In this document: positions 273 through 8,878 of the stretch, piece after piece
Numbering within the stretch: position 1 is the first letter of the stretch
Layout: every line of letters begins with the position of its first letter
Virus record (IMG/VR): IMGVR_UViG_3300042564_000130
Location: 1 to 34,524 of that record
Direction: 5' to 3' (one strand)
Length of the DNA stretch: 34,524 nt
Origin: a virus
Position numbers and translations under genes: made by a program
The notes under the pieces: generated by a model
The model's database searches: none
The model's input: the letters and a program-made list of their open reading frames with translations, nothing else
What the model was told of the DNA's origin: nothing

Positions 273-675
273 CAGAGGGAGGGAGGCGGAGTTCTCCCTC
301 CTCCTATCCAAGAAGTTCAATTGCACTTTCTCGAAGCTCCCCATCCGCTATGGCCTAGACTTCAGCGCCGTGAGGGATGGACGCGTTGTCGCGTTTGTGG
401 AGACCAAGGTAAGGACCAACCCAGTGGGTCAGTACCCGACCTACCTGATATCCTCAGGAAAGTTCATGCATGCAGATGCGCTCTCGAGGGCGACCGGACT
501 CAAGTGCATGCTGGCCGTCAGGTGGTCTGACGCTTGGGGCTACACGGAGCTGACGATGTCACCCGACATCACCGTGTCTATCGGCGGCAGGATGGACCGT
601 GGTGATGAGCAGGACATCGAGCCAGTGTGCCTGATCCCGATATCCCGCTTCACCGTTACAGCCCTGCATCCCTGA
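238..675 (+). CDS. Putative PD-(D/E)XK-type nuclease
   Basis: This 145-residue protein starts at GTG 238, with GAGGAG at 222-227 as its ribosome binding site. The N-terminus has an acidic helix (REAEFSLLLSKKF), then YGLDFSAVRDGRVVAFVETK. This gives the order E...D...E-x-K expected of the PD-(D/E)XK fold (candidates E17, D42, E56 and K58). Small nucleases of this type occur in phage replication modules as resolvase-like or DNA-processing enzymes. The substrate cannot be told from sequence. Its 3' end overlaps the 3' end of the convergent giant gene by 20 bases. The nuclease call is by motif only; a nuclease-fold protein without activity is possible. Confidence 0.55.
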   Translation: MTTRPIYETRADRGREAEFSLLLSKKFNCTFSKLPIRYGLDFSAVRDGRVVAFVETKVRTNPVGQYPTYLISSGKFMHADALSRATGLKCMLAVRWSDAWGYTELTMSPDITVSIGGRMDRGDEQDIEPVCLIPISRFTVTALHP

Positions 676-3600
676 GCAGTGAGTTCGCCCTGCTGAGGAT
701 CATCTGCTTCCTCTCCTCGAGGCGATCCAAGAGGACCCGTCTCTGCTCATCCGGGATGTTCGGATTGGCATTGATCTGGTTCCGCATCTTGCTCGTCTCG
801 CGGAGTGCGCTCTCCAAGGACTTGATGGGACCAACGAGGCGAAGCTCCTTGCCGTAGCGCTGGATCGTCTCCTTTGCCCACGCAGCATCACCGACCTCAC
901 GCGCCCGCTTCAACTCCTCGCCTGCAGTGAGGACAGCCTTGGCTCCCTCGATGTAGGAGCCCATGTCCTCGCGCTCTGAGACAGAGCCCACGATCTTACG
1001 GAAGAACGGGATTTCACGGGCAACCTCATCAGACAGGCCCTCGTCTGCCGCCTTGAAGGGGAGCTCAGCGATGCGCTGGACGAAGCGACCGACACCGCCA
1101 GTGGCGAACTCGAACCAGAAGTCCACGACGTCAGGCGACCAATCCACGAAGCCCGGACGCACCTCATTGCCACCAGTGATGGCGTTGAGGTTGTTGGTGA
1201 TCCAGACCGCAGACGGGCTGGTGGTGGACCAGTAGAGCTGGCTGGCTGGTGCTGGGGTGCGGTCGAACGGCAGGCCCTCTTTGTAGATGGGCTTGTCGGC
1301 GAAGTCCTCGTTCTCAAGGATGTCGATGAACGGATCAGCGACGGTCGGGGCGACAAGGTTTGCCCAGCTCTCAGCGCCACCGATGGGGTTCAGCGTGTCG
1401 CCGATGGTGCCGAAGATTGTGGAGGTGGCCTCGCCTGCATCGTACTCCCCACGCGCAGCCCTGCTCACGGCACGACCGAGGTTGTGCGCCATGTTCAGGC
1501 CATACGGCATGGGGATCGAGATGTAGGAGCGGTCAGTGATGCCGAAGACATCCGGCAGGATGAAGTTGTGCTCAAGCACATACTGGGGAATCTTGTCGTA
1601 GATTTTCTCCCCGTCTTCGTCCTCATCCGACAGCATGGCGTTGAGCTGATCCTGCAGGAGGCCAGCAACCATGATTCCAGCCCACATCTTGCGGACCTTG
1701 GGTGAGCGCACGGCGGCATTCAGGAGGGCGAACGAGCCCTGCAGGGATGCGTTGTAGAACAGATACCAAGCGCCCATGAGCTGGCGGTAGTCGCCGCCCT
1801 TGGCGAAGTTCACCGTCACGTTGCGGGCAGCCTGAGCTGCACGTTGCTTGGACATTCCCCGGTCGATGAGCGCCTTGTAGGTGGCGACACGGATGCCGTT
1901 CTCGACGACCGTGTTGTAGTTCTCGACGAGGTTAAGGAGGGACCCGGTCTTCTTGCCGATGAAGCTGTTCTTCACTGCGGCCCACTGCCCACGGGCACCG
2001 GACTCCGAGATGTCGCCAAGGATGCCTTGGATGTTAGACATCTCATCGGCCAAGGTGTTGAACTGGTTGGTCGCATTCTGACCGCCAGCAGCAACGAAGT
2101 CCTTGTATATCTTGGCCCACTCCGAGGTCTCGTCACCGTTGCGGATCACGCGCTTGATGCCGACCAGAGCCGACTTCACGTTCCTGATCGCGTCAGAGGT
2201 GAGGCCTTCCATCTCGTATTGATTGATGTTCACGCCTGCGGTCGAGAGGTCGCGGAACATGTTCGTGATAAAGAACTCGGGGTTGTACGAGGTGTTGATG
2301 TTGGCGAGGTAGCGGTTGACCTTCTGCATGGCGGAGGTCAGCGATGCCCCGGTGGTGGGTGAGAATCCGTTCTTTCCGTTCATGGCACCAGCCACGCGCT
2401 CATCACGGAAGCGGACGAACACCTCCTTGCCGTCCTCCTTCACCACGAGGATGTCGGGATCGTTGTATGCGCGGGGATCAGGCACGTCGCGCATGGTGCC
2501 GTCAACCGATGCCCTCATGGTGGGGGCTCGCTTCAAAACCTCAGCGTATGCCGTCGTCTTGTTAGGGTCCGCACGAAGCAGTCTCAGGAGGGACTGCCCC
2601 ACCTTGTTGCGCTCAGCGCGGAGGATGGCGTTCTGGTTCTGAGTGAAGACATTTGCCACCAGATCGGCGGCATAGTCATAGCGACCCAGAGCCTTGCGGT
2701 CCTCCCGGCCACGAGCGCCGTAGCGGGGTGTACCCGGAGGGCCAGCGAAGTCATCCTCGTTGGTGTCAACATCGCCATCCGTGACGCCACGAAGGGGGAC
2801 GTAGAACTTGTACTGCGACCCAAGGACGACGGTGTTGCCGTCTTTGTCCACGGCATCTTCAGCGATGAGACCGCCATCAACGCGGGTCTGATTGGTGTTG
2901 GCCACAATCAGGCGTATGCCCTTCGTGAAGTCCTTGATGGCCTGAATGTTGCCGGCATCAAGGCCCTCGAACCAACGCAGGATTGCCTCCGCTTCTGCGT
3001 CTGTCATCCCAGAGCCAGCGTCGTTGGTCTTGTCCTTGTTGGCCTTGATGTAGCGGTTCCGCTCACGGGCATGCTTGGCGTACAGGTAGGCATCTGCCAG
3101 CACCATGCGGGGGCTGTCGCTCTGCTCCATGGCCATAGCAACATAACCCTTGCCGCTGGTGGATGCTGCATTCGAGGCAGCGATGAGCTGGTCGATCCTA
3201 GCCTTCGGCACGTTCAGCTTTTTGATGGCCTGAACGACGGGCTCATACAGGCCCTTCTGGTTTGCGCTGATCTTGTCACCAACCACACCATGCATGAGCT
3301 CTTCCTGCAGGTACGGGTCCATCGCGTCAGTGATGGTCATGCCCTTGGCTGACAGCTCCTGAACCATGCGTCCAATCGGCAGCATGCTGTCTTGGAAGCG
3401 GCGCAGCAGTCCGTCGGCAAACTCACGGGCAGTGTCCTTCTTGACCAGCTTTGTGCCAGTGAGGATTCTCGCGATCAGGTCGGACGAGCGGGCATACATC
3501 AGCGCCTTCTGGTTGGCCTGAATGTTCTGCCGCACGTTGGCAGTGATGGGGCTGACGGCGTAGCGGATCGACATGCGGGTGTCTGGGCTGTACGGCTCAC

Positions 3601-6600
3601 CGTCAGGGGCAAGGCCTTCCTTCCAAGTCCACTCCGGCATGAGGCCGACCTTCTGGTCAGCGAAGATGGTGTCCTCGACCTTGGCCTTGCGGTTCTGCTC
3701 GCCGAAGGGTCCGTAGTTCAGCCAGCTATTCTGGCCACGGGTCTCAGTGGTGAGAGCCCCCTTGGCCAAGCCAGTGAACAGGCGGATGTGAGCCTGCCAT
3801 GCGTTCTCCTCGCCACGGGCACGGAAGCCCGAGCCCTCGATGCCATGGCCGAATGCATCATGCACAGCTCTGAACAGGTCGTTGGCAAGCACCGGGACCT
3901 TTGGTCCATCCGGCCCGCCATACGGCCACATCAGATCAGTCTCCTCGAGGAGAGGATTCTGCGAGACATCGACTTCTTCTCTGGTGCCGAACCCGGAGAT
4001 GCTGGGGAACACCCCCATGGTCTTGTTCTTTCGGATGTCCCGCATCGCGTTCCACGGCGTGGATGCGTATGCCTTGTTGGCATCCTTGTCGATGAACCAG
4101 AACTTATAGCCAGCGTCAGCCAGTGCGTCGTACTGTGCGCGGGTCTGCTTGATCAGCTCTGCGTATGCAGCCTTGACCTGAGGATTGCTCGGGTCGTGCT
4201 CCATTGCCTCGAAGGCATCAGCGATGCGACCAGCTAGGGCCTCATCGACATCGACGTATGCGCCTTGACGGCGGAGGTCGATGCCGTTCTCGCGGGCGTA
4301 CTTCTCGGCAACTAGGACGAGGTTTTGGTCCGGGCCTGAGGCACCTTGAACCCGCGGAGCGCCTTCAAGCGGCGGAGCTCCCCGTACCGTTCTCCCTCCG
4401 CCTCCGTCTCGATCCCCACGTCCTGCGATCTTCCGGCTAAGTCTGGACGATCCGCTTCCATCGGAAGCAGGTCCCGCTCCAGCCCGCGCATCGCGGCCAT
4501 AAATTGCTCCTTCGGACTCGGCATCTTGGAACCTCCTTGCCAGTGCGTCCAGTGCAGAACGGTTGACCTCCGGGCGCTCATACCACGGAATGTCAGCCCT
4601 ATCTGTTACCTTGAACTTTTTCGGGATCACGGGGCTCGGCAGATCGACGCGCTTCCCGCTGTCGTCCATTACCTTACCAGACTTAATCGCATCCAAAAAG
4701 TCCTTAAATGTCGTTGGCTTCATGTAAACGAAGCCACCCTTGGACAGAGGGTACTCCATGATGGAGCCCTTAGCGGTGCGAATGTAGCGTGACCCAGAGG
4801 AGAATGTTGCCATCTTCCCTTCGGTAACGCTGAAGCCTACCGGAGTACGCCCAGACACGGCCTCCAAGGTGGAGTGATCAACGACCTGCTCCCCCTCGAT
4901 GACCCAGCTCTCCCAGTGGAAGCGACCGAGGCTACCGTCCTCAGGTCTGCCGATGGCAGCGTATGCCTCCTTGACGCTGTTCTTGAGGCCGTTCTCTAGG
5001 GACTCCGTGACCAGCAGGCCGCGAGGTCCCTTCATGATCTTGTTGAGGCCACCGCCGTCCGTGCCGAGACCATCATAGATGTTGACGCCACCAAAGCGGC
5101 CATCGTCCCACAGGTGGCGGGACTGGATTCGATCCATCACCAGCACGTCATCGCGACCGCTGACGAGCAGGATGAACGACACGACCTTGTTGTCGATGCC
5201 GGGTGCATCTGTGTTGGACAGGAACCAACGACGGATTGCTGGTCCGCTCATGGCGGGATCGGACATCATGTCGTGCACCGTCTGGAGCACCGTCTTGTCG
5301 GTGTCTGGGACGGTCTGCGACATGGCCTGCATCAGCCTGCCAGCGGCGTTGACGTTCATGGTCACCTGTCTGCCGGGAGACGCTTCCTGCAGGGCACCAG
5401 TTACCTGAGATTCCCAAAGGGCGACGTCGTCATCTGACAGCGGCCCACGGATGGCCTTCTCCACGAATGGCTTCGCAGAGTCGATGACGTCGATGTATGC
5501 GCCCTCCTGCTGGACTGGACCAGCGCCACGAGAAAGGATGCCCCAGATGAACAGGTCAGCCGTCATGTCGGGCGTTGCAAGGCCGGAGTCATACAGGCTG
5601 CGAAGAGCCTTGACGTGCTTGAAGCCACGGTCAACGCCGTCCTTGAGCGCAGGAGTCAGGCCGGAGAGCTTGTCTGCAATCCTCTTGGGATCGGACGCAT
5701 ACGACACGGCGACATAAGGCGTCTTCGGGAGGTACTCTCCGCCGAAGGTCTGCTGCATGAGGCCAAGCCAACCGGGTTCAGACTTCAGGCCAGCAGGGTT
5801 CGAGGCGAGAGCAGTGTCAATCGCTGCATTGTTCTTTGCCACGTTGGACTTGTTGTACTTCTGGGTGATCGGCAAGACCGCCTTGCTTCCGTCTCCGTCA
5901 TCAAGGAGAACATCCGGCAGGCCGTGCGCCGTCGTTCCTTCAGGGACAGTGAGGGCCGAGAACCTAGTTGGCTCGGCGGGAGCAACTATCTTGCGCTCAC
6001 GCTTGCCGATGTCACCGAAGCGCACACCCTCGAAGATGGCGTTGGGATCGGTGAGGCCAGCCTCTGCATGGGCACCCCACAGAGCTTTGAAGAAGCCCTT
6101 GATGCGATCCATGAGGGTCTTCGGCTTGCCGCCAATCTTCAGGCGACCAGCGACGTAGTCGCGGAACATCTCCGCGACAGCCTCTTCGGACTGAATCTCG
6201 GGGCTGTCACTGGCATACATCTGCTGTGCGCGCTGCAGGTAGGTATACCCACGCTCGACGCTCTTACCATCCTTGACCTTCATGTAGCGCTGACGTGCTG
6301 CCAGATCGCTGAGGGTCTTCCACTCGCCGTCGGTGAAGAGGCCGAGGCTGCGGATCGCGTGGATGACCTCGTGGTTCATCACAGCAGAGATGGCGTCGAA
6401 CAGCTCCTGCTGCGACATCTTCGGGTCGTACACGCCAAGAGCCAAGGAGATGATGCGGTTCCCGTTGCGGCGGTCCACCTCCATCATGCCCTCGATCAGG
6501 GCGTTCTGCGGCGCATTGGCGGGGCGAATGACGCGCTCTGCCACAAGCTTCACGTCGGACAGGCCAAGGTTGTCGAGGCGGCGACGGAAGGCGGTGAAGA

Positions 6601-8872
6601 GCTGGCCTTCCTTAGCGGTGTAGATCGGTGCCCGTGCTGCGGCCTCGGCTGCAACGGATGCCTCCTTGGCTGCAGCTGCCGTCTTCTGAACGCGATCCTG
6701 CTCGATGTCGGATGCAGGGCGGGCAAGAGCTGAGCGGATACCCTGAGCCATGCGGGAATCCGCGGCGGCGTCACGCTCCAGATCGAGCATGCGCTGCTGG
6801 TCGGATTTGGGCAATTGAACTTTTTTGCCGGACTCGCGGAGACGACGCGCTTCGGCTGCCTTGCGGGCTGCTTCCCGCTGGTAATAGTCCATGGACTGCT
6901 TGAGGCGCTTTGCGCGGTCAGACACTGCGGTCGCTTGAGCGCGAGGTGGTGCCTCGGTGATCGGTACTGCAGCCTTGCCGTCGGCGATGGGAGACAGTGG
7001 TGCCTCAGTGCGCGGCACAGCGGTCTCGGCGGATGCCCTAGGCAGACGAGCCTCGACCTCCTGACGCGTTGCCTGCACCCGCGCCAGCGTCTCTGCAGCA
7101 GAATCTGCCTGCAGGTTGAACTTGCGAGCGTCAGCCTTGGAGCCAGTCTGCTCTGCACGACGTGCGTCTAGGAGCGCTTTCTGCTGCGCCGTAGTGGCTT
7201 CCTGTGCGTCCTGCTGCAGATCATCAATGGTGCGGCGGTAGCTCTCAGCTTGGTCAACCTCTGGCAAACGGGTGGGAACCACACGGAAGCCACCCTTGGA
7301 CTTCTTGTCGGCAACGATGACGCCGTCAGCAGCCATGCGGTCTCGAATGGCCTTGGCCACGGCAGGCGTGGCGGGCTTCTTGGGATCGGTGCTTGCCGCC
7401 TTTTGGATGGCAGGGACAGACGCGTCCTTGGCGTTGACCACGGCCTGAGTTGCCGCAGTGTAATCGCGCCAACGGAAGGGCTGGGCGGGGCGAGGTGCCT
7501 CAGGTGTGACAAGACTCTCTTGAGTGGGCTGCGTTGCCGCGGCTGGAGTCGGAGCTTCTGGCACGGGCGCGGCTGGAGCGGCGGGCTCTGCTGGCGTCTT
7601 CTGCGCCAATTCTGCCTCATACTCCTCGAGGGTAATCCCTCTCTCCCGGTATGCCTGAATGGCCCCGAGCATTTTCCTCGCCTCAGCGCGGCGAACCTCA
7701 TCTACGGTAGCGGCAGGCTCTGCGGCGGCTGGGGCTTGAGGGGTTGGCGCTGCAGCGGCTGTCCGTGCCGGGGCAGGTAGGAGTGCTACGGGCGCTTCGG
7801 CCTCAGGGGGCGTGGGCTCCACAGCGGGAGGCGGTGCCATGGCCGCATCACCAAATGCGATGCGCTTGGACGCGTCCTCAGCTTCTTCTCTCTGGTCCTC
7901 CTCGAGGTCCTTGAGCGCTTGGTCAAGCTCCCTTTCTTTCGTTTTGTCGGCAGGAGACAGAAATCCGCCAACACCACCGATAGTCCCGCCAACGGCCATG
8001 CCCGAGAACAGGGCCTCGGCGTATTCGGCCAGCGCATCTGGAGAAGTAAGGTCCTGCCCTGCTTGACCCCGGATCACGGCCTGCTGGAAGACTTCAGTTG
8101 CGCCCTCCGCGGTGCCAGCCTCAATGGCATTCTTGACCGCAGAGCCAACCCGGCTCTTTGCTTCCTTTGGTATCAGTTTGCCCACAACGAAGTAGTCGGC
8201 GACAGCTTCGCTCAGCAGGTTTACCGCTGTAGCGCCAATGGCGTTGGTCAGATTGACCTCACCGCCAGCTTCCTTCTGCGCCTCAATGGCCTCAGCAAAC
8301 ATCTGAGGGGCAGCCTGTGCCGTGGTGTATGCGACACCAGTGGCTCGACCGATGGCAGCACCGGGCAGTGCGCCGATGCCGCCAAAAAACGACCCAATGC
8401 CAGCGCCTGTGGCAGTAGCTCCAGCCTGAATGGCCGCGTCCCGTGCCTCACCGCCTAGCTGTTCGCCCGTAAAGCTTGCAGCGGTACCCAGCCCACTGAT
8501 GTCTTGAAAGCGAACAGACGGGTCCTCAGACTCCAGCCTGCGGAGTTCAGCCTCTGCGGCTTCCTGCTTAGCCCGAGCTTCTTCCGCGCTGAAGCCAAAG
8601 AATTTTCCAAAGGCAGTGTCGGCGAGCGCCTCCTCGGCAACTCCAAAGGAGCGGGCCCTCTGGAGTGGCTCACGGACAAAGCCGCGACCGAATGCGGTGC
8701 GGTCAGTGTCCTCTGGTGCCACCTCTGCTGAGGCAACTGGTGCCATGGTGGCGTCCATCTGCGCGACATAGGCGTCGATGCGAGCCTGCTCTGCGGCAGT
8801 TGGAGCGTCACCCGCGATGCGGACAGAGTACGTCGCGCCAGTTGCGGAAGAGGGTACGGAAATCACTGCCAT
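656..8872 (-). CDS. Giant polyvalent (internal virion/ejected) protein with HEXXH and LPD38-like regions
   Basis: This 2738-residue protein is probably packaged in the head and ejected with the DNA, as proposed for large polyvalent phage proteins. Visible order: Gly/Ala-rich, possibly membrane-active segment near 154-180; Ala/Pro linker about 340-470; winged-helix-like segment about 475-535; charged coiled-coil region about 540-780; zinc-metallopeptidase-type HEVIH at 834-838; a globular region about 980-1440; a Gly/Arg-rich stretch 1450-1520; a domain with HDAFGHG at 1671-1677 and TETRGQNSWLNYGPFGEQN after it; helical regions; and an LPD38-like region about 2190-2490. ATG 8872 was chosen over TTG 8878 because AGGGAG lies 7 bases before it. 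It is last in the late operon, after three other ejection-type genes. Peptidase activity is not proven, and 4524-4312 carries a second frame. Confidence 0.85.
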   Translation of the reverse strand: MAVISVPSSATGATYSVRIAGDAPTAAEQARIDAYVAQMDATMAPVASAEVAPEDTDRTAFGRGFVREPLQRARSFGVAEEALADTAFGKFFGFSAEEARAKQEAAEAELRRLESEDPSVRFQDISGLGTAASFTGEQLGGEARDAAIQAGATATGAGIGSFFGGIGALPGAAIGRATGVAYTTAQAAPQMFAEAIEAQKEAGGEVNLTNAIGATAVNLLSEAVADYFVVGKLIPKEAKSRVGSAVKNAIEAGTAEGATEVFQQAVIRGQAGQDLTSPDALAEYAEALFSGMAVGGTIGGVGGFLSPADKTKERELDQALKDLEEDQREEAEDASKRIAFGDAAMAPPPAVEPTPPEAEAPVALLPAPARTAAAAPTPQAPAAAEPAATVDEVRRAEARKMLGAIQAYRERGITLEEYEAELAQKTPAEPAAPAAPVPEAPTPAAATQPTQESLVTPEAPRPAQPFRWRDYTAATQAVVNAKDASVPAIQKAASTDPKKPATPAVAKAIRDRMAADGVIVADKKSKGGFRVVPTRLPEVDQAESYRRTIDDLQQDAQEATTAQQKALLDARRAEQTGSKADARKFNLQADSAAETLARVQATRQEVEARLPRASAETAVPRTEAPLSPIADGKAAVPITEAPPRAQATAVSDRAKRLKQSMDYYQREAARKAAEARRLRESGKKVQLPKSDQQRMLDLERDAAADSRMAQGIRSALARPASDIEQDRVQKTAAAAKEASVAAEAAARAPIYTAKEGQLFTAFRRRLDNLGLSDVKLVAERVIRPANAPQNALIEGMMEVDRRNGNRIISLALGVYDPKMSQQELFDAISAVMNHEVIHAIRSLGLFTDGEWKTLSDLAARQRYMKVKDGKSVERGYTYLQRAQQMYASDSPEIQSEEAVAEMFRDYVAGRLKIGGKPKTLMDRIKGFFKALWGAHAEAGLTDPNAIFEGVRFGDIGKRERKIVAPAEPTRFSALTVPEGTTAHGLPDVLLDDGDGSKAVLPITQKYNKSNVAKNNAAIDTALASNPAGLKSEPGWLGLMQQTFGGEYLPKTPYVAVSYASDPKRIADKLSGLTPALKDGVDRGFKHVKALRSLYDSGLATPDMTADLFIWGILSRGAGPVQQEGAYIDVIDSAKPFVEKAIRGPLSDDDVALWESQVTGALQEASPGRQVTMNVNAAGRLMQAMSQTVPDTDKTVLQTVHDMMSDPAMSGPAIRRWFLSNTDAPGIDNKVVSFILLVSGRDDVLVMDRIQSRHLWDDGRFGGVNIYDGLGTDGGGLNKIMKGPRGLLVTESLENGLKNSVKEAYAAIGRPEDGSLGRFHWESWVIEGEQVVDHSTLEAVSGRTPVGFSVTEGKMATFSSGSRYIRTAKGSIMEYPLSKGGFVYMKPTTFKDFLDAIKSGKVMDDSGKRVDLPSPVIPKKFKVTDRADIPWYERPEVNRSALDALARRFQDAESEGAIYGRDARAGAGPASDGSGSSRLSRKIAGRGDRDGGGGRTVRGAPPLEGAPRVQGASGPDQNLVLVAEKYARENGIDLRRQGAYVDVDEALAGRIADAFEAMEHDPSNPQVKAAYAELIKQTRAQYDALADAGYKFWFIDKDANKAYASTPWNAMRDIRKNKTMGVFPSISGFGTREEVDVSQNPLLEETDLMWPYGGPDGPKVPVLANDLFRAVHDAFGHGIEGSGFRARGEENAWQAHIRLFTGLAKGALTTETRGQNSWLNYGPFGEQNRKAKVEDTIFADQKVGLMPEWTWKEGLAPDGEPYSPDTRMSIRYAVSPITANVRQNIQANQKALMYARSSDLIARILTGTKLVKKDTAREFADGLLRRFQDSMLPIGRMVQELSAKGMTITDAMDPYLQEELMHGVVGDKISANQKGLYEPVVQAIKKLNVPKARIDQLIAASNAASTSGKGYVAMAMEQSDSPRMVLADAYLYAKHARERNRYIKANKDKTNDAGSGMTDAEAEAILRWFEGLDAGNIQAIKDFTKGIRLIVANTNQTRVDGGLIAEDAVDKDGNTVVLGSQYKFYVPLRGVTDGDVDTNEDDFAGPPGTPRYGARGREDRKALGRYDYAADLVANVFTQNQNAILRAERNKVGQSLLRLLRADPNKTTAYAEVLKRAPTMRASVDGTMRDVPDPRAYNDPDILVVKEDGKEVFVRFRDERVAGAMNGKNGFSPTTGASLTSAMQKVNRYLANINTSYNPEFFITNMFRDLSTAGVNINQYEMEGLTSDAIRNVKSALVGIKRVIRNGDETSEWAKIYKDFVAAGGQNATNQFNTLADEMSNIQGILGDISESGARGQWAAVKNSFIGKKTGSLLNLVENYNTVVENGIRVATYKALIDRGMSKQRAAQAARNVTVNFAKGGDYRQLMGAWYLFYNASLQGSFALLNAAVRSPKVRKMWAGIMVAGLLQDQLNAMLSDEDEDGEKIYDKIPQYVLEHNFILPDVFGITDRSYISIPMPYGLNMAHNLGRAVSRAARGEYDAGEATSTIFGTIGDTLNPIGGAESWANLVAPTVADPFIDILENEDFADKPIYKEGLPFDRTPAPASQLYWSTTSPSAVWITNNLNAITGGNEVRPGFVDWSPDVVDFWFEFATGGVGRFVQRIAELPFKAADEGLSDEVAREIPFFRKIVGSVSEREDMGSYIEGAKAVLTAGEELKRAREVGDAAWAKETIQRYGKELRLVGPIKSLESALRETSKMRNQINANPNIPDEQRRVLLDRLEERKQMILSRANSLLRDAGL
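4312..4524 (-). CDS. Nested out-of-frame small gene inside the giant gene
   Basis: A 70-codon frame, offset by one base from the giant gene, begins with ATG at 4524. It is preceded by AAGGAGG and a 7-base spacer, one of the best ribosome binding sites in the window. The product is mostly helical and charged. It opens MPSPKEQFMAAMRGLERDLL, continues with acidic segments (ETEAEGERYGEL), and ends with basic residues. Its composition looks like a normal protein, unlike the Arg/Ser/Pro-rich shadow frames elsewhere. Over the same bases the giant protein is low-complexity Gly/Arg/Ala (residues 1450-1520). I recognise no family. It may be a small soluble protein retained when two genes fused around it. 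Confidence 0.6.
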   Translation of the reverse strand: MPSPKEQFMAAMRGLERDLLPMEADRPDLAGRSQDVGIETEAEGERYGELRRLKALRGFKVPQARTKTSS

Positions 8873-8878
8873 CTGCAA

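Follow-up and report, generated by a model that had tools for sequence, protein, structure and literature searches.

A candidate dual-coding gene conserved in the interdomain linker of giant polyvalent-type phage proteins

Nested phage genes and the present locus

Phage genes nested out of frame within longer genes are already known: in the Rz/Rz1 spanins of lambda, a long gene contains the whole of a short one in its +1 frame, an arrangement that is conserved widely and that gene callers usually overlook (PMC6139136). Here we describe a nested open reading frame (ORF) in a virus contig of 34,524 nucleotides (IMG/VR record IMGVR_UViG_3300042564_000130; hereafter, the window) that, like Rz1, lies wholly within the +1 frame of a longer phage gene. 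Unlike Rz1, which is an outer-membrane lipoprotein encoded in a lysis gene, the predicted product has no lipobox or signal; its gene lies where a giant polyvalent gene encodes a linker between domains, and it is found alongside one particular domain of the giant protein. The host gene product is of the kind described as polyvalent by Iyer et al. (2017; PMC5512222), being a giant multidomain phage protein with the polyvalent-associated domain LPD38; a text search of that paper found no mention of an overlap or a nested small gene.

The nested ORF and its host gene

The nested ORF occupies positions 4312 to 4524 on the minus strand, is complete within the host gene on the same strand in a different frame, and encodes 70 amino acids (MPSPKEQFMAAMRGLERDLLPMEADRPDLAGRSQDVGIETEAEGERYGELRRLKALRGFKVPQARTKTSS) from an ATG at 4524-4522 to a TAG at 4314-4312. 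The start context was as the first-pass annotation had claimed, with a Shine-Dalgarno (SD) sequence, AAGGAGG (4538-4532, minus strand), separated from the ATG by a 7-base spacer (4531-4525), and with 70 codons open in the +1 frame. The host gene (656 to 8878, minus strand) encodes 2,740 amino acids from a TTG that is followed two codons later by an ATG. LPD38 is found near the C terminus of the giant protein (residues 2427 to 2625; E 4.9e-40), and its C-terminal half matches three large PHROGs of unknown function. The 34.5-kb contig also carries capsid-type, tail-fibre, endolysin, and DNA-ejection-protein genes; as the giant gene follows an ejection-protein-like gene, its product is likely an injected virion protein.

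The length of the nested ORF alone is unremarkable, for the giant ORF also contains same-strand alternative ORFs of 107 to 202 amino acids. Since a 70-codon open frame is not unusual in a GC-rich giant gene, the case for the nested gene must be comparative. Two of the alternative-frame ORFs, in the N-terminal part of the giant gene (6550-7158 and 7168-7701, minus strand; 202 and 177 amino acids), are probably GC-rich shadows.

A family of nested ORFs at one position

Searching at the DNA level with the entire giant gene returned nothing, and searches of phages and viral contigs with the nested protein alone found no annotated relative. Searches of Pfam, PHROG, and PDB with the nested proteins gave scattered single-member matches at chance level, and the nested protein fits no Pfam or PHROG family; phrog_8865 (head scaffolding) was rejected as its family, the best E value of 0.003 being at chance level. 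Relatives were collected by using as an anchor the conserved domain just downstream (giant residues 1515 to 1760; 3599 to 4336, minus strand), which partly matches phrog_3170 (unknown function). This anchor search yielded a close set of 80 viral and 17 bacterial-genome loci and, afterwards, 80 more distant viral loci.

A small +1-frame ORF lies at the same place in 73 of 74 nonredundant relatives (domain at least 59% identical), the sole exception being L064, and most of the distant set carries it too, contrary to the initial statement that there was no sign of a family. In the homologous giant genes, the nested frame has stayed open; a start codon is usually present, and an SD often is. In four loci (L034, L065, L083, and L093), the nested ORF is present and shorter at its 3' end; L093 also has a different-looking +1-frame ORF at the same position (5786-5947; MTVGRIVQNVQMASRAAGKPLANVTPRQIVEMVDRG...), perhaps a replacement small gene. 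Across relatives, the nested stop varies in position, lying at one extreme about 54 bases ahead of the anchor and at the other 90 bases past it. A further locus (L123:3752-4025) has a TAG in the giant frame just before the domain with the nested ORF intact, reflecting either a real split or a sequencing error in this single metagenomic contig. Named carriers are, among others, Synechococcus phage MinM2 (L008), with the start context AGGAGG-5-ATG, Paraburkholderia saeva LMG 31841 (L100), and Halomonas sp. NO4, in a prophage-like locus (L091); in the annotated record MW202722, the nested gene was not called.

The conserved core of the window's nested protein (ETEAEGERYGELRRLKALRGFK; residues 39 to 60; 4345 to 4410, minus strand) coincides with a predicted helix (residues 41 to 60). 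The core in close relatives is usually like PETEEDGIRAEALRRLKVRR, and their +1-frame reads before the domain include MEDDPNRPETEEDGIRAEALRRLKVRLLSKG (L096), MKQYDPNQPETEQDGQRAAQLRLLKVHRQF (L033), and MRNPMDQFLDAMKGLEK...EEVEEDGIRQASLRRLKVRRQSEA (L031). Split-half cross-validated profiles match the core at the expected place in 67 of 70 loci, and their one credible match elsewhere comes from a locus with a duplicated domain, next to which a second nested gene lies; the 70-locus statistics given here and below exclude four loci that have no candidate start. In the distant relatives, a second sequence class (PKRENFQTQEEYEEALAFFKHR) occupies the identical place and frame, mostly as the PKRENFQTQEEYEEALAFFKHRxKHL or DDPEEIAAWQKHRERQRG types, before the domain and frequently with AAGGAGG-8-ATG. 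An hhalign profile comparison of the two classes, which share place, frame, and neighbor domain, gave no match; as they are not alignable in this way, the argument for common descent of all the nested genes is one of position only.

Downstream of window position ~4426, the DNA of the closest relative (L001) shares about 91% identity with the window; just upstream, the two giant proteins are unrelated, so that the break (window ~4426, L001:13782) falls inside the nested ORF. L001 retains a +1-frame ORF ending in RYAELRRLRARRSFKVPQDRTKTSS, the window counterpart being RYGELRRLKALRGFKVPQARTKTSS.

Selection on the two reading frames

Over the 24 codons before the domain, +1-frame stops were observed in 5 of 74 loci, compared with 31.4 of 74 expected from host-synonymous shuffles (minimum, 25), and in four of these five the nested ORF is still present, merely ending earlier. 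This count was redone with the four start-less loci included to give the total of 74, and the conclusion holds. The mean +1-frame similarity between loci, calculated, like the codon-position pattern below, without those four, was 1.59, compared with −0.15 after giant-frame synonymous shuffling (z = 44); a control region 30 to 50 codons downstream gave no signal (z = 0.8), and this control weighs more than the z value itself because sequence relatedness inflates such values.

The substitution pattern changes along the overlap. Between codons −30 and −12 relative to the domain, the freest nucleotide is host codon position 1, the third position of the nested codons; past codon −12, it is host position 3. 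Nei-Gojobori dN/dS counts on independent pairs gave 0.32 for the nested frame and 1.39 for the giant frame over the core (codons −25 to −12), in keeping with the earlier proposal that the small gene is maintained in its own frame and the giant frame relaxed, and 0.78 and 0.36, respectively, over codons −12 to 0. The corresponding values for the distant class (codons −45 to −25) were 0.19 and 2.97, from five pairs only. In the control region, the giant frame had a dN/dS of 0.15 and unconstrained +1 frames values of 1.89 to 2.7. Constraint thus moves across the overlap, acting first on the nested frame and then on the giant frame, which is itself conserved from PPLEGAP onward. Constraint is not restricted to the host frame, then, as the nested frame is constrained over the core, and purifying selection on the nested frame exceeds that owed to the host frame. 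Conversely, giant-frame stops over the nested gene were found in 0 of 70 loci, against 46.6 of 70 expected from nested-synonymous shuffles; as the giant frame is stop free against expectation, both frames appear to be used.

These results bear on the composition of the giant protein over the nested gene. Gly/Arg low complexity had been reported for giant residues 1450 to 1520; it is present in a narrower stretch, about residues 1480 to 1503. Within the Gly/Arg-rich linker (4370 to 4420, minus strand), the giant frame is relaxed and seems largely dictated by the Glu-rich codons of the nested frame, since nested-frame Glu codons give rise to GGA/GGG-type codons in the giant frame. A Gly-plus-Arg content of 36% is predicted from the nested amino acids alone, compared with 43% observed over the linker and 15% in the domain. 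In L064, which has lost the nested ORF, there are many +1 stops and the giant-protein linker is not Gly/Arg rich (one case). To judge from these codon compositions, the linker is largely a shadow of the nested Glu-rich peptide.

Translation signals and predicted product

A strong SD with a correctly placed ATG or GTG was found in 36 of 70 loci, compared with 4.9 expected from synonymous shuffles (maximum, 13); start positions are uncertain in several relatives. At about a quarter of the loci (n = 17; mean GC content, 42%), the best start has no SD. These loci are low in GC, and their other long genes also seldom have an SD (12%, versus 35%), which suggests hosts that lean less on SDs.

For the window's nested protein, AlphaFold2 predicted helices at residues 4 to 18 and 41 to 60 at low confidence (mean pLDDT, 67; pTM, 0.27). 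It has no hydrophobic signal and no Cys, hence no lipoprotein signal. The product is predicted to be a short soluble protein in which an acidic stretch is followed by a basic amphipathic helix, with, in the window, a putative second short helix before the latter.

Linkage with the downstream domain

The nested ORF is co-inherited with the domain and not with the segments upstream. The 300-residue segments upstream fall into 26 unrelated groups across 70 loci, and the nested ORF and domain remain together. In one contig (L028/L201; L028:5849-7719), the domain is tandemly duplicated within one giant gene; an intact nested ORF precedes each copy, and the two nested proteins do not differ in their N-terminal parts. 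With the nested core alone as the query, 46 loci were recovered. Each lies in the +1 frame of a host ORF that is itself open, and the domain is present in 45 of them, the remaining one running off its contig. The link is strong and not absolute, as certain copies of the domain are without a nested gene (L064, L010, L103, and the solo domain genes L105 to L107). The solo domain genes occur in bacteria such as Chryseobacterium, Aquimarina, and Ruegeria.

The domain itself is characterized by the motifs NDLFRAVHDAFGH and ETRGQNSWLNYGP, and its structure was modeled confidently (pLDDT, 88.7; pTM, 0.85). The model had no fold match in PDB, and its matches in BFVD are to phage proteins only, so that the chemistry of the domain offers no hint to function.

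Taken across the loci compared, the +1-frame peptide is shown to be conserved as a peptide, in step with the following domain and duplicated with it. On comparative sequence grounds, we regard the nested gene as a genuine, old dual-coding gene that moves with the downstream domain and upstream of which other domains have been shuffled.

Origin and alternative explanations

The small gene could once have stood alone, as an ordinary gene separating two others that were later fused by read-through, an origin that had been proposed for this locus and that we consider rather doubtful. The nested ATG in L143 overlaps the stop codon of the upstream gene (ATGA), which is an ordinary operon junction, and the upstream part is a separate gene in some relatives (L184, L179, and L004). 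However, the unfused cases keep the frame of the downstream gene open over the nested gene, which still lies inside that gene's linker; in L184, for example, the upstream ORF ends at 3603, the downstream ORF runs from 3605, and the nested ORF lies at 3795-3965 with an ATG start. No clean stand-alone copy, for which a search had been suggested, was found among the loci examined; one candidate (L102) was rejected because it is a truncated remnant, next to a gene resembling a bacterial dehydrogenase. Overlap with the N-terminal linker of the domain gene itself seems to be the common state, and the fusion origin is weakened to that extent.

It is improbable that the nested ORF serves as a regulatory element through its translation, with ribosome loading or recycling yielding the C-terminal part of the giant protein also by itself and the peptide being unimportant. 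An SD and start of its own beside the domain boundary, together with a stop close to the domain, would suit such an element, but the position of the stop varies, a constant downstream start is absent, and the identity of the amino acids is conserved beyond mere openness of the frame. Still less probable is entry into the nested frame by ribosomal frameshifting, giving a truncated giant protein with an alternative tail. The nested frame is indeed often open upstream of the likely start; yet it is always +1, whereas the common frameshifting mechanism in phages is −1, an SD and start of its own are enriched, and several loci (e.g., L053, L070, L088, and L096) have a stop in the nested frame immediately ahead of the start. 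Least credible is a signal at the nucleotide level, whether an RNA structure, a recombination hot spot, or a packaging site, or else a by-product of the conserved giant frame, with no nested translation, which would accord with the module boundaries seen here (such as the break at window ~4426) and is largely refuted by codon-position and dN/dS patterns that fit the nested frame, by the loss of +1 similarity in host-synonymous shuffles, and by giant-frame relaxation exactly over the core.

The reading that we favor, with a probability of about 0.8, is that 4312 to 4524 is a real dual-coding phage gene, presumably internally initiated, whose product may partner the C-terminal part of the giant protein. 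Ribosomes would initiate at the nested AAGGAGG-ATG on the giant-gene mRNA, and a single mRNA would supply the giant protein and its small partner in fixed proximity. Where the two genes overlap, the giant frame would need only to be open and flexible, hence the Gly/Arg linker. The partner role, which is less certain, is suggested solely by co-inheritance with the domain: the nested protein may act in trans with the C-terminal part of the giant protein, probably a virion-ejected protein, and its candidate roles toward the adjacent domain are those of an assembly partner, chaperone, or inhibitor. More tentatively, it might be a partner specific to the neighboring domain of an injected phage effector, acting as antidote, chaperone, or targeting factor, and encoded in the linker DNA of that effector itself.

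Conclusions

The nested ORFs make up a large unannotated overlapping-gene family present in well over a hundred phage contigs. Neither the family nor its setting, an interdomain linker of giant polyvalent proteins, was found described in the literature searched, the coverage of which lay largely outside subscription journals. The family offers an explanation of low-complexity linkers as coding shadows and indicates that such linkers can contain genes; as standard gene callers tend to leave out nested genes, similar cases may be common. Because the small protein is tied to one uncharacterised domain, the function of both becomes testable. If the nested protein is indeed a dedicated partner of that domain, module swapping between phages would always carry the domain and its partner jointly.
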